37,977 nucleotides of DNA. It comes from Bifidobacteriaceae bacterium (GTDB taxonomy: Bacteria > Actinomycetota > Actinomycetes > Actinomycetales > Bifidobacteriaceae). Shown here in pieces: positions 11,176-34,865 of the stretch. The notes below the pieces were generated by a model. The model had not been told where the DNA came from. It saw only the letters and a list, made by a program, of their open reading frames with translations, and did no database searches. How positions within the stretch are numbered: position 1 is the first letter of the stretch; each line of letters begins with the position of its first letter. The translations under genes were made by a program, and so were the position numbers. Location of the stretch: positions 1 to 37,977 of the forward strand of contig JAQXZM010000006.1 in assembly GCA_029227215.1 (NCBI GenBank), written 5' to 3'.

Positions 11176-13340
<2,165 letters not shown>

Positions 13341-16942: not shown

Positions 16943-17400
16943 GGCCTTGGGTGTGAGTGGCGGCTCACACTGAAGGTGGCGGCTGGCTTTGCTGGCGAAT
17001 GTGTGAGCAGCGGCGCGCACTGAAGGTGGTTTCCTGTGCCCGGGTAGGCCGTGGTGGGTTGGTCCGTGCCTTCGGTGCGAGTGGTGGCTCACACCGAAGG
17101 TGGCGCGGCATGGCGGATGCGGCTGTGTCGGGCTGGTTCTTGGCTTGGGTGTGAGCGAAGACTCGCATCCAAGGTGATTTCCATGGACTAGGTGGCGGCA
17201 TCAGGCGGATTCTGGGCTTGGGTGTGAGCAGCGGCTCGCACCCAAGCCGGTTTGTCGGGCCCGGGGAGGCTGTATTGGGTTGGATTTACTGCTTGGTGTG
17301 AGTGACGGTTCGCACTGAGGGTGGCCCTGCAGCGCTTGGGTAGGTCGTGACGGGTTGATTCTGGCTTCGGTGCGAGCAGCGTCTCACATTCAAGCACCTG
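16943..17400. repeat. 74-bp tandem palindromic repeat array, seven units
   Basis: GTGTGAG or GTGCGAG occurs at 16951, 17001, 17075, 17149, 17222, 17296 and 17370. The steps are 50, 74, 74, 73, 74 and 74. Each is followed after six or so bases by an inverse CTCRCAC-like arm. The best unit (17217-17246) reads CTTGGGTGTGAG, six bases, CTCGCACCCAAG. In the unit at 17071 the outer arm is CTTCGGTG with CACCGAAG instead of CTTGGGTG with CACCCAAG, a compensated base-pair change. The inter-palindrome stretches are also alike (for example GGGTAGGYCGTG and GGGTTGGT), so the whole 74 bp is the unit. It fills the gap between valS and the solute-binding protein gene. It is not coding. Confidence 0.88.
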
Positions 17401-29557: not shown

Positions 29558-31138
29558 TCAGGCGGCGGCGAAATCGTCCGAGAGCTCCTCGATCGAGTCT
29601 TCGTCCGCGTCGTTGTCGAGGATCTCGTCCATGAGGCTGCCGTTGATGCGGCCGCGCACGGCGAACCACCCGGCGATCATCGCGATGACGACGACGCCGA
29701 ACAGCGCGAGCGTCCACCTGCCGGACGTGCTCGTGAGATTTGAGACGACCACGAGCGTGAAGAATGCGAGCGCCAGGTAGTCGGTGAATGGGGCGCCGGG
29801 CATGTGGTACTCCGGGCGGGTCTCGGTGCCGGCCTTCACGCGGCGCAGGAATGCCAGGTGCGTGATGAGGATGGACGACCAGGTGCCGGCGATGCCGATG
29901 CCGGCGAGGTTCATGATGATGTCGAAGGCATCGGAGGGCAGCACGGCGTTGAGCACCACGCCCAGCAGGCCGAGCACGGATGTGATGATGATGCCGCCAT
30001 AGGGGATGTGGTTGCGGTTCATGCGCGCCGCGAAACGCGGGCCGGAGCCCGCCACCGCCATCGAACGCAGCGTGCGGCCGGTGGCATACAGGCCGGCGTT
30101 GAGCGAGGAGAGCGCGGCGGTGAGCACCACCACCTGGATCACATCGCCGGCGTGGGGGATGCCCAGCCCGGCGAAGAACGTGACGAACGGCGACTGGCTG
30201 GAGGAGTACGCGGTGTAGGGCAGCACGAGGGCCATGAGGATCACCGAGCCCACATAGAAGCCGAAGATGCGCACAATCATCGAATTGATGGCTTTGGGCA
30301 GCACTTTCTTCGCTTCCTTCGCCTCGCCGGCGGCTACGCCCACCATCTCGGTGCCGCCGAACGCGAACACGACGCCGAGCGTCAGGGCGAACACGGGCGC
30401 GATGCCCTTGGGGAAGAACCCGCCGTAATCGGTGATGTTGTGCAGACCGGCGTGGTAGTCGCCCACCGGCGCACCGGTCACGATGGCCCAGATGGCGATC
30501 GCCATGAACGCAAGGATCGTGGCGACCTTGATGGCGGCGAACCAGAACTCCGCTTCGCCGAACGCCTTGACGCTCAGCATGTTGAGCGCGAACACCGCCG
30601 CCAGGGCACACAGCGCGAGCACCCACTGCGGCACCGGCTGGAACGCCTTCCAGTAATGGAAGTACAGCGCCACGGCGGTGATGTCGGCCATCACGGTGGT
30701 GGACCAGTCGAGGAAGAACAGCCAGCCGGTGATGTATGCGCCTTTTTCGCCGAGGAATTCGCGTGCGTAGGACACGAACGCACCGGAGGACGGGCGGCGG
30801 ATTGCCAGTTCGCCGAGCGCACGGACCATGAGGAACGCGAAGATGCCGCACACCGCATATGCGATGGTCAGGCCGGCGCCGCCTTGAGCGAGACGTCCGC
30901 CCGCGCCGAGGAACAGGCCGGTGCCAATCGAGCCGCCGATGGCGATCATCTGGATGTGGCGCGGTTTGAGGTCTTTCGCGTAACCGGCGTCGCTTTTGTC
31001 GACCGCTTGGGTGACCGGAGCTGCTGATGCGGATTGGGCTGCCGGTGCCGATTGGTTCGCGGAGGATGCGGATTCGGTCGCGGATGCAGGCGGCCTGCTG
31101 CCGGACGCGCTCTGCTCTTGGTGTTGTTGTGATGCCAT
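29558..31138 (-). CDS. ansP: L-asparagine permease, APC superfamily
   Basis: 526 residues with about twelve membrane helices after a 55-residue Ser/Ala/Gln-rich cytoplasmic extension. The core begins LKPRHIQMIAIGGSIGTGLFLGAG. It continues with RPSSGAFVSYAREFLGEKGAY, DITAVALYFHYW, NITDYGGFFPKG, VVFAFGGTEMVGVAAGE, SQSPFVTFFAGLG and LTAALSSLNAGLYATGRTLRS, which I recall as closely matching E. coli AnsP along its length. It imports asparagine by proton symport (family knowledge). The C-terminus is acidic. ATG 31138 follows AGGA eleven bases upstream. It is followed by ansA. A perfect 18-bp palindrome about 180 bases upstream is a likely operator. Confidence 0.9.
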   Translation of the reverse strand: MASQQHQEQSASGSRPPASATESASSANQSAPAAQSASAAPVTQAVDKSDAGYAKDLKPRHIQMIAIGGSIGTGLFLGAGGRLAQGGAGLTIAYAVCGIFAFLMVRALGELAIRRPSSGAFVSYAREFLGEKGAYITGWLFFLDWSTTVMADITAVALYFHYWKAFQPVPQWVLALCALAAVFALNMLSVKAFGEAEFWFAAIKVATILAFMAIAIWAIVTGAPVGDYHAGLHNITDYGGFFPKGIAPVFALTLGVVFAFGGTEMVGVAAGEAKEAKKVLPKAINSMIVRIFGFYVGSVILMALVLPYTAYSSSQSPFVTFFAGLGIPHAGDVIQVVVLTAALSSLNAGLYATGRTLRSMAVAGSGPRFAARMNRNHIPYGGIIITSVLGLLGVVLNAVLPSDAFDIIMNLAGIGIAGTWSSILITHLAFLRRVKAGTETRPEYHMPGAPFTDYLALAFFTLVVVSNLTSTSGRWTLALFGVVVIAMIAGWFAVRGRINGSLMDEILDNDADEDSIEELSDDFAAA

Positions 31139-31440: not shown

Positions 31441-31743
31441 GCGGGCGCGTCGGGTCGTCGGTAGGTCCAAGTCCAGTGCCCCCGACTCGTTTACGGATAC
31501 GACCGTCACCCGCGCAGTCCGCTCGTCCAGAACAGAACCCCCCGGCACACCTACGGGTGCAGCCATCATCTGCGCAGTCCACTTCGGCTTGAGCGGAACG
31601 CCCGGACACGCCTGTGGGCGCAATCGGCAATCCGACTGGCGTGGCGATTTCGCAATGGACGCCCCGTCGCGTTGACGGATGCAATCGGCAATCCGACTGG
31701 CGTGGCGATTTCGCCATGAACGCCCCGTCACGCCTGCTGGTGC
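31441..31743. repeat. 60-61-bp degenerate tandem repeat array, about five units
   Basis: Units begin near 31441, 31501, 31561, 31622 and 31683. The last two are nearly identical (both start AATCGGCAATCCGACTGGCG and share CGATTTCGC and GCCCCGTC). Units 2 and 3 share GCGCAGTCC. Each ends in a GGRTGC/GGGTGC/GGGCGC phrase. The last units contain an inverted pair GGCGA/TCGCC and GGCGT/ACGCC. The array lies upstream of ansP and downstream of the small membrane protein gene. It is not coding. Confidence 0.75.
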
Positions 31744-31850
31744 AACGTCTGCCGGGATTGGCGGCGATGTCTTCGGCTTAATCCGCTTTCGATGCAGTGG
31801 CAATGCCCTTGGATTTGAAAAGCCTTTGAAGTAATCGATAGTCGCGATGA

Positions 31851-32388: not shown

Positions 32389-32465
32389 TGGTAGCGGGGC
32401 ATGGATTTGAACCATGGACCTCTGGGTTATGAGCCCAGCGAGCTACCGAGCTGCTCCACCCCGCG
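32389..32465 (-). tRNA. initiator tRNA-fMet (anticodon CAU)
   Basis: A 77-base cloverleaf with encoded CCA. The first acceptor position is unpaired (C1 opposite T72), and the anticodon stem ends in three consecutive G-C pairs (GGG/CCC around CTCATAA). Both are marks of the initiator rather than the elongator tRNA. The D arm AGCAGCTCGGTAGCTC is typical. Confidence 0.95.
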
Positions 32466-32639: not shown

Positions 32640-33185
32640 GCGGCGTTGGTTGGCGTATGTTGCGGCATGCTTGCTCAGCCGTACGCGTGTGGAAGCATCG
32701 TTTTATCAAGGGTATTGCGCAAGAATCGTATGTCGCGGTATGCGTGGCCGGTTGGATGTTGGTGGTCTTGCGTTACTGCCGGTTGTATCTGGCGGGTTGT
32801 GTATGTCGTGACATACGCAGGTGGCTGTATCCGGAGAGTTCCGGATGGTGACCGTGGGTCTGCCGCACGTTGCGTATGTATCGGTATACGTGAGTCGCCG
32901 CTTGTCGGATGGTTGGGGTTGTGCCCGATGGTGTTCCGCCAGTTGTGTATGTACCGGCATGCGTATCGCAGCAGATGCTGGTGGATTTGGGAGAGGACGT
33001 GGGGGATTTGCAGGTTGGGTATGCGCGGGCATGCGTGTTCGGCTGGATGTCGGTGGTCTTGCGTTACTGCCGGTTTGTATCTGGCGAGTTGCGTATGTCG
33101 TGGCGTACACAACTCGCCAGATGCCGGCGGGCTTGGGCTTTTTGCGGTGATGTTCCGCAGGTTGTGTGTGTCGTAGGATACGTGC
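32640..33185. repeat. 73-bp tandem palindromic repeat array, eight units
   Basis: A YGTATGT-like word recurs at 32654, 32727, 32800, 32873, 32946, 33018, 33092 and 33165, in steps of 73, 73, 73, 73, 72, 74 and 73. Each is followed by an inverse arm such as CATACG, giving cores like GTATGTC-GT-GACATAC (unit 3). In unit 7 the palindrome extends to 42 bases (33080-33121), with outer arms TCTGGCGAGTTG and CAACTCGCCAGA. The spacers of units 3 and 7 are almost identical over about 40 bases (GGTGGTCTTGCGTTACTGCC), indicating recent duplication within the array. It occupies most of the gap between tRNA-fMet and metA, and no reading frame is credible. Confidence 0.88.
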
Positions 33186-33261
33186 CACGCGACTCATATG
33201 ACTTGACGTGGACGGGTCGGCCGTCCGCCACCGTGCAATGGTGCCAGTGTGAGGAGTGGCG

Positions 33262-33512
33262 CCGGCGTTGTGTGAGGATTTGCTCGCACGGTGGCGGGTT
33301 GGGTGGTTGGATTTTGGTTGGTGTGCTTGCGTTGGGGCCCGTTGTGTGAGGATTCGCTCGCACAATGACCGATGCGGTGGTCAGGGCCGGTTATCTGGGT
33401 GGCCCTAGGGGTCGTTGTGTGAGGATGGGCTCGCACGGTGGGCCTGCGATGGTGGGAATCGGTGCGTGGGGAGGGTGCGGGGTGCGTTGTGTGAGGATCG
33501 GCTCGCACTCTG
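33262..33512. repeat. 73-bp tandem palindromic repeat array, four units, GTGTGAG type
   Basis: GTGTGAGGAT starts at 33270, 33344, 33417 and 33489 (steps 74, 73, 72). Each time, after a six-base loop beginning GAT, comes CTCGCAC. The second unit has nine-base arms TTGTGTGAG/CTCGCACAA. The core GTGTGAG-N6-CTCGCAC is the same as in the array at 16943-17400. It directly follows the array at 32640-33185 and precedes metA. Confidence 0.88.
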
Positions 33513-33610
33513 ACTGGGTACATGATCTGCCGCTTGCAGTCAGCGGTCGTGCCGCCTGCCCCGTCCGCCGACAATCGCGTGCCTTGCCAGTCTCGTCCGC
33601 CAGTAACCCC

Positions 33611-33700
33611 ACCCCGCTCTGCCGCACCCCGCCCTGCCGCACTCCGCCCTACCGCACACCGCCCTACCGCGCCTCGCTCTACCAAACCCCGCCATCCGGT
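33611..33700 (+). repeat. 15-bp minisatellite upstream of metA, six copies
   Basis: Six 15-base units of the type ACCCCGCYCTRCCGC follow one another without gaps, each differing by one to four bases. The tract ends 52 bases before the metA start. Being a multiple of three it keeps a frame open into metA (SAAPRPAALRPTAHRP-type peptide), but no ribosome-binding site or homology supports translation. Confidence 0.8.
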
Positions 33701-33752: not shown

Positions 33753-34865
33753 ATGCCTATCAAGATTCCAAGCGGCCTGCCCGCACGTGCCATCCTCGAC
33801 TCCGAGCGCATTTTCGCGCTGGAGAAACCTGAAGCTGAGCGCCAGCGTGTGCGCCCGCTGCGCCTGGTGATCTTGAATCTCATGCCGAAGAAAATCGAGA
33901 CCGAAACCCAGTTGCTACGGCTGATTTCGAAGTCCCCGCTGCAGGTCGAGGTCGATTTCATGAAGACCTCGACCCACGAGTCCAAGCACGTCAGCGCCGA
34001 CCATCTGGTCAAGTTCTACGAGAACCTTGATGCGTTCCGCGACAACTATTACGACGGCTTCGTCGTCACGGGCGCGCCGGTGGAGCACCTGGAATTCGAC
34101 CAGGTCGATTACTGGGACGAGTTCAAGGAGATTCTTGACTGGGCAGGTTCGCACGTGTTCTCGACGATGTATCTGTGCTGGGGTGCGATGGGCGCCCTGC
34201 ACTACCGGTACGGTGTACGCAAGCATCTGTTGCCGCAGAAGCTGTTCGGCGTCTATCCGCAGTATTTGCAGGACGAGTATTGCTTCTTGACCAACGGTTT
34301 CGATGAAATCGCGCTGCAACCGCATTCCCGGCTCGCCGGTGTGGACGAGGACGATATCGCGGCGAATCCCGACCTCCAGGTGCTCACGTGGGGTCCGGAG
34401 TCCGGCCCCGGACTGATTGCGACGCGTGACTTCTCCGAGGTGTTCGCGCTCGGCCACTGGGAGTACGGCAAGATGACGCTCGCCGAGGAATACGAGCGTG
34501 ATATGGCCAAGGGGCTGACCAACGTGCCGTTCCCGGAGAACTATTTCCCGCACGACGACCCCAAGCTTGAGCCCTTGTTCAGCTGGCGTGCCCACGCGAA
34601 CTTGTTGTGGCGCAACTGGCTGAACTGGGTCTACCAGACCACGCCGTACGACCTGCGTGAAGTCCCGCGGTTGCGTGCGGAGAAGCGTTTGGGTACGGAC
34701 CGTTCGATCCGTCATGCGCCGGGTGCGCCGCGAGGTGACGGGTACGCCCCGCTGATCAAGGACGGTTATGGCCTGATTAAGGACGATTATGCTCAGGACG
34801 AACGCGTGCGTTCTGCGACATCGCCCGCTCCCGCCGGCCCGGTGGCCGACGGCGCCGATGCCTGA
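33753..34865 (+). CDS. metA: homoserine O-acyltransferase (MetA), predicted O-acetyltransferase
   Basis: 370 residues, acylating homoserine in methionine synthesis. Catalytic residues are Cys142 (STMYLCWGAMGAL), His235 and Glu237 (FALGHWEYGKM). Lys46/Lys47 lie in the conserved NLMPKKIETETQ. Position 111 is Glu (TGAPVE). In this family Glu111 is known to favour acetyl-CoA and Gly111 succinyl-CoA, so acetyl transfer is predicted. The family ends near residue 305; here about 60 Arg/Ala/Gly-rich residues follow (GDGYAPLIKDGYGLIKDDYAQ), a non-conserved tail with an internal repeat. ATG 33753 has only a weak TGGA. No SAM riboswitch is visible upstream; the gap holds repeats instead. Confidence 0.93.
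   Translation: MPIKIPSGLPARAILDSERIFALEKPEAERQRVRPLRLVILNLMPKKIETETQLLRLISKSPLQVEVDFMKTSTHESKHVSADHLVKFYENLDAFRDNYYDGFVVTGAPVEHLEFDQVDYWDEFKEILDWAGSHVFSTMYLCWGAMGALHYRYGVRKHLLPQKLFGVYPQYLQDEYCFLTNGFDEIALQPHSRLAGVDEDDIAANPDLQVLTWGPESGPGLIATRDFSEVFALGHWEYGKMTLAEEYERDMAKGLTNVPFPENYFPHDDPKLEPLFSWRAHANLLWRNWLNWVYQTTPYDLREVPRLRAEKRLGTDRSIRHAPGAPRGDGYAPLIKDGYGLIKDDYAQDERVRSATSPAPAGPVADGADA

Follow-up and report, generated by a model that had tools for sequence, protein, structure and literature searches.

Intergenic gaps of several bifidobacterial lineages carry arrays of short dyad-symmetric sites that are real, dispersed, species-restricted, phased along the DNA helix and subject to turnover of whole units. 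In each unit a dyad of about 16–26 bp is followed by a linker whose sequence is poorly conserved. In the 37,977-nt stretch of DNA that was analysed (the window), one such array lies in the gap between tRNA-Met and metA. The eight GTATGTC-type (A) cores with steps of 72–74 that had been claimed in a sequence-only reading of this DNA are borne out by the core coordinates, which run from 32655 to 33166; the steps between the 16-mers are 73, 73, 73, 73, 72, 74 and 73. A search allowing at most one mismatch to GTATGTNNNGGCATRC recovered seven of the eight cores and no other site in the 38-kb window. Tandem Repeats Finder did not report the A array, because its units are too diverged and conservation is limited to the cores.

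The finer features of the array were recovered with some corrections to that reading. The palindrome around unit 7 is present, its size being 44 nt and not 42. The near-identity claimed for the spacers of units 3 and 7 holds for those in front, since the stretch running from core 2 into unit 3 matches that from core 6 into unit 7 at 84–86%; the spacers following units 3 and 7 are unrelated to each other. This level of similarity fits the proposed duplication or conversion at a distance of four units, from units 2–3 to units 6–7, and in another orthologous array two species (G161 and G162) differ by the gain or loss of about one period. The adjoining GTGTGAG (B) array with the same period was also found as described, with four cores downstream of the A array at steps of 74, 73 and 72. 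The only genes identified around the A array are tRNA-Met, a permease gene, metA and the atp genes. Two ordinary tandem repeats lie nearby: a 61-bp repeat (31596–31745; 2.5 copies) in the stretch from the permease gene to tRNA-Met, and a 15-bp repeat, ACCGCACCCCGCCCT, of about 6 copies immediately upstream of metA (33606–33693).

Table 1. Coordinates of the arrays and their neighbours (positions in the window unless a locus is named)
Feature	Position	Strand	Sequence or remark
tRNA-Met (CAT)	32389..32465	-	left edge of the intergenic gap with the A and B arrays
A core 1	32655..32670	+	GTATGTTGCGGCATGC
A core 2	32728..32743	+	GTATGTCGCGGTATGC
A core 3	32801..32816	+	GTATGTCGTGACATAC; 16-bp dyad, near-perfect
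A core 4	32874..32889	+	GTATGTATCGGTATAC
A core 5	32947..32962	+	GTATGTACCGGCATGC
A core 6	33019..33034	+	GTATGCGCGGGCATGC
A core 7	33093..33108	+	GTATGTCGTGGCGTAC
A core 8	33166..33181	+	GTGTGTCGTAGGATAC; degenerate, 3 mismatches
Palindrome around A core 7	33079..33122	.	44 nt; 17-nt arms 94% complementary, one arm mismatch, 10-nt centre
Duplicated or converted stretch, copy 1	32728..32819	+	core 2 to core 3
Duplicated or converted stretch, copy 2	33019..33111	+	core 6 to core 7, four units off
B half-core GTGTGAG	33247..33253	+	right arm missing
B core 1	33270..33289	+	GTGTGAGGATTTGCTCGCAC
B core 2	33344..33363	+	GTGTGAGGATTCGCTCGCAC
B core 3	33417..33436	+	GTGTGAGGATGGGCTCGCAC
B core 4	33489..33508	+	GTGTGAGGATCGGCTCGCAC
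metA	33753..34865	+	right edge of the gap; followed by the atp operon
Second phased array, 7 B-type cores	16951..17389	+	steps 50, 74, 74, 73, 74, 74; in the gap from valS to its neighbour gene (g1 part of the window)
84-bp palindrome arrays of G002	L074 5008-5428; L075 763-1256; L176 7751-8488

The sequence-only reading had allowed for an assembly artefact and for a period not kept in sister strains, and had suggested comparing unit numbers. The separately assembled genome G161 carries the A and B units in identical order, at 99.1% identity across 1207 nt, where the only gap is 1 bp long and falls in a linker. Since this independent genome matches unit for unit, the A array is no assembly error, an artefact is ruled out, and the period is conserved together with units and order. 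The orthologous tRNA-Met/metA gaps vary in content: eight A and four B sites in this strain and in G161, two A and eleven B sites in G070, and one B-like site each in G162 and G076.

The window itself is probably a chimeric contig of two organisms within a metagenome-assembled genome. Left of about 30.7 kb its nearest relative is G001 of genus g1 (valS 91% identical in DNA), and right of this point it is nearest to G161, G070, G076 and G162 of genus g13, a genus represented here by more than 100 species and most likely Bifidobacterium. The part that holds the A array is 97–98% identical to G161. The switch falls inside an amino-acid permease gene at about 30650–30750, and a second metA-atp region, which clusters with g1, is found on contig C37 of that draft genome. 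A chimera is the simplest reading; the switch may also be a real recombination. On contig C37 (L051 2311–4340), a partial tRNA-Met copy, an integrase-like remnant and an acyltransferase-like gene stand before the intact tRNA-Met, and this segment looks like an element inserted at a tRNA gene. Elsewhere in the window, a TPP riboswitch (13228–13335, minus strand) lies ahead of the gene at 11176–13230.

Beyond what had been read from the window, the arrays turned out to be genome-wide families. Of the 189 genomes searched, only those of four sister species of g13 are rich in GTATGTC- and GTGTGAG-type cores. The A-type matches number 49 in G070, 41 in G161, 22 in G076 and 11 in G162, with two at most in nearly all other family members searched; the g13 B-type matches number 115, 90, 49 and 45 in G070, G161, G076 and G162, and 6 and 12 in G110 and G177. 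Genus g1 has families of its own. The window's own genome, G000, has the core GTGTGAG-YGGYGG-CTCGCAC (80 matches with the shared pattern), G001 has 135 matches to a B′ variant with the right arm CTGGCAC, and G002 has both a family D (GCGGGTG-TGGYGG-CACCCGC, period 73 bp) and a family E with a longer palindrome of about 40 nt and a period of 84 bp. The earlier suggestion of two core types with one architecture thus extends to six core families across seven lineages. A scan of genome contigs with the g1 core gave two single matches only, both unrelated, and a profile built from 98 G000 spacers alone found no matches in other species, so that we claim no homology of linkers across species. No arrays were seen in G003 or in roughly 350 kb of sequence drawn from further relatives, a provisional absence at 20–60 kb per genome; because these sampled relatives are without the families, any function is not essential to the Bifidobacteriaceae-like group.

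The array loci number in the dozens and their neighbours are varied (valS, atp, metA, an ammonium transporter gene and others). The gap next to valS holds arrays with different cores in G000 (the second array of the window) and G002 (L074 10324–10761) and is short in G001 and G003, and the gap from atpD/C to the next gene holds arrays in G000, G001 and G002, each with a different core; both gaps were chosen because of the window and are not a random sample of loci. An endonuclease-like gene (DUF559-type by eye) lies between two B arrays at L047 6203–7297, which could be chance. A 7.7-kb segment bounded on either side by B arrays (L203 6374–14079; L205 7415–15120) is 99.3% identical between G110 (g13) and G177 (g15), more likely a recent horizontal transfer that carried the arrays along. 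As a mobile element behind the arrays this segment was rejected: it holds a metabolic gene cluster surrounded by insertion-sequence-like genes, and the arrays are more likely hitchhikers. The A array matched no phage or plasmid, and such an origin was rejected on this result.

What the families have in common is their spacing. Steps in the A family are 72 (n = 8), 73 (n = 66) and 74 bp (n = 5), and those in the g13 B family are 73 (n = 55) and 74 bp (n = 19). The G000 B family has steps of 42, 52, 73–74, 105–106, 116–117 and 126 bp, and the G001 B′ family has steps of 42, 52, 105–107, 116 and 126 bp, with 73 absent; D steps in G002 are 73 bp and E steps are exactly 84 bp in 35 of 36 cases. Pooled, the ranges of 42, 52–53, 72–75, 84, 105–107, 115–117 and 126 bp correspond to 4, 5, 7, 8, 10, 11 and 12 turns. 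Depending on the family, 81–100% of the steps fall within 1 bp of a lattice of n × 10.5 bp (10.5 bp per turn), against about 19% by chance, although units are copied and steps therefore non-independent, so that a stricter count gives perhaps six or seven independent spacing modules and not hundreds. The few off-lattice steps are 59, 61, 79 and 82 bp. When the G000 spacers were collapsed by similarity, the spacings other than 73 were still phased (R = 0.77–0.83, p < 5e-5, with none of 20,000 draws as high). The distances across A-B junctions are scattered (38–179 bp), and the phase is therefore kept within one family. This retention of spacing where the letters of the palindrome differ suggests a protein aligned on one face of the DNA.

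Our preferred reading, which we hold tentatively and with less than even confidence, is that these are REP/BIME-like, RAYT-less arrays of putative sites for one or more dimeric DNA-binding proteins aligned along a single face of the helix, and that they grow by duplicating whole units. The dyads would be double-stranded sites, probably with one protein per core family, and the putative protein would occupy one helical face, touching its neighbours along the array to make an ordered nucleoprotein patch. Arrays would lengthen or shorten as whole units are duplicated in tandem or converted, and helical phase would be retained because units out of phase would bind or pack poorly. The protein's effect in the cell might concern chromosome organisation or supercoiling, or might amount to no more than letting the repeat persist. 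Symmetry in the A family is conserved and compensatory pairing was not found, as expected for a protein site. The B sites of G000 show an excess of arm pairing at the first three flanking positions, and with 73-bp units only the excess is at the first two flanking pairs (53 versus 42 ± 2.8 and 34 versus 26 ± 3.5 expected). Part of this covariation is subfamily structure; lying just outside the core, it is not needed by a simple operator and counts against the operator model. On these pairing results, a dimer-bound double-stranded site is favoured over a hairpin.

The arrays resemble BIMEs in their distribution and the F-plasmid centromere in their layout. Like REP, BIME and REPIN elements, they are short imperfect palindromes that occur in many intergenic copies, form species-specific families and lie in regularly spaced clusters, and BIMEs bind IHF, DNA gyrase and Pol I (PMC2817692). 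Strict membership of the REP/REPIN class fails because RAYT transposases are absent: the RAYT domain (Y1_Tnp, PF01797) was found in none of G161, G070, G076, G162 (99% complete) and G000, and once in G001 only. The arrays here also differ in being mostly head-to-tail and not alternating or inverted, in an A-family consensus (GTTGCGTATGTC..GGCATGCGCAA) without a GTAG or CGTC tag at either end, in their whole-helical-turn spacing and in A-family arms that do not covary. The F-plasmid centromere sopC/parS-F has a 43-bp unit repeated twelve times in tandem, with 16-bp inverted repeats to which SopB/ParB binds, and operates as an ordered protein array (PMC6238139). Like it, our arrays are tandem repeats with one short dyad each at near-integral turns (43 bp, about 4.1 turns, in sopC); unlike it, they stand at many chromosomal loci rather than one, are not beside parAB and are built of units that have diverged strongly beyond the dyad. 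CRISPR arrays likewise alternate a short palindromic repeat with a linker at regular intervals, but the repeats here are degenerate, their linkers are weakly related to one another and 43–57 bp long, the A array has no match to phages or plasmids, and the many small arrays are scattered among housekeeping genes.

The orientation of the arrays bears on a somewhat unlikely alternative, namely that they are selfish REP/BIME-like repeats, copied by a trans-acting single-strand nuclease or transposase acting on hairpins in the lagging-strand template, with a unit length inherited by copying and no role for the host. Of 79 arrays, 67 have all their scored cores facing the same way, near-perfect dyads being hard to orient. 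Against a replication proxy, the GC3 difference between plus- and minus-strand genes, array orientation agrees at 26 loci and disagrees at 6. Strongly polar arrays agree with the surrounding GC skew by 25 to 1, a tally that is partly circular for contig C32, where the array region was unmasked, and a looser tally against context skew gives 34:8 with the same partial circularity (C32). An intergenic skew proxy with looser family definitions, including the E family, gives an agreement of 32 to 17. Raw coding GC skew gave no signal and is a poor proxy, because genes carry a strand bias of their own; hence our use of the GC3 difference. Orientation thus likely, though not firmly, follows the replication strand and not transcription, and strand-biased C-to-T mutation could be the source of the link.

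This orientation speaks for selfish repeats, as do the arm mismatches, which are mostly G.T on one strand and far more often G.T than A.C. The tens to more than 100 intergenic, species-specific copies per genome, their quick gain and loss, and the regular spacings already known for REPs, which in Pseudomonas fluorescens SBW25 form 71 and 110 bp doublets and 72/112 bp tandem arrays (PMC3116915), also speak for such repeats. Against them stand the missing Y1 transposase in the five genomes named above and the predominance of head-to-tail units over inverted doublets. Copying alone, moreover, leaves the whole-turn lengths of unrelated families unexplained, and the arrays gained by G110 and G177 through horizontal transfer have not spread, though the transfer is recent.

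The linkers speak to the possibility, which we regard as quite improbable, that the arrays are neutral tandem repeats in which an old duplicated unit decays and the period is a relic. Aligned spacers average 45–49% identity, against 39–40% when shuffled, and keep their length constant within about 1 bp; length is therefore preserved far better than sequence. Because linkers within and between loci are weakly alike, part of the constant length reflects common descent, and whole-unit duplication is observed, both as neutral repeats would have it. Cores, however, are conserved while spacers have fallen to this identity with a length change of only 1 bp, the family lengths differ and yet all fit the helical lattice, and the same gaps in G000 and G002 hold arrays with different cores.

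It is very improbable that the units act as hairpins in transcripts, whether as terminators, mRNA stabilisers or non-coding RNA. The one-strand excess of G.T wobble would suit structured RNA, as would some single copies: isolated cores of the B type, near 5480 in L048 and near 13150 in L051, lie in perfect hairpins followed by T-rich sequence, resembling intrinsic terminators. Yet the strand of an array shows no tie to that of the flanking genes: arrays between co-directional genes run with and against them about equally often, and arrays also occur between divergent genes; the A family lacks compensatory pairing, and helical phasing of DNA would be meaningless in RNA. An Rfam search gave nothing beyond a chance-level match, and on this absence and the lack of a tie to transcription an RNA element was rejected. 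The least probable account is that a cruciform or slipped-strand structure is itself functional with no dedicated protein: long near-perfect palindromes such as that around A core 7 and the extra arm covariation beside the G000 core are in its favour, but most A sites have uncompensated wobble or mismatch positions, and helical phase between separate cruciforms has no evident role.

Intergenic palindromic repeats have long been known; the part that may be new is a whole-turn rule shared by families that differ in sequence. In the open-access literature searched we found no description of such a rule for repeats of this type and no paper on such arrays in bifidobacteria (subscription journals were outside the scope). 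A bolder form of the protein-site reading, which we consider rather unlikely, would be an undescribed chromosome-wide system in several bifidobacterial lineages, with species-specific proteins on phased dyads, protein and dyad changing together and the pitch conserved; fast-evolving centromere or recombination-site systems would then have an analogue in bacterial intergenic DNA. If the whole-turn rule is true, it points to protein arrays bound to double-stranded DNA and not to RNA or single-strand hairpins, and linker changes of 5 bp versus 10 bp would discriminate simply. The sister species, in which cores are swapped at shared loci, would then form a natural series in which the cognate protein could be sought by co-occurrence.
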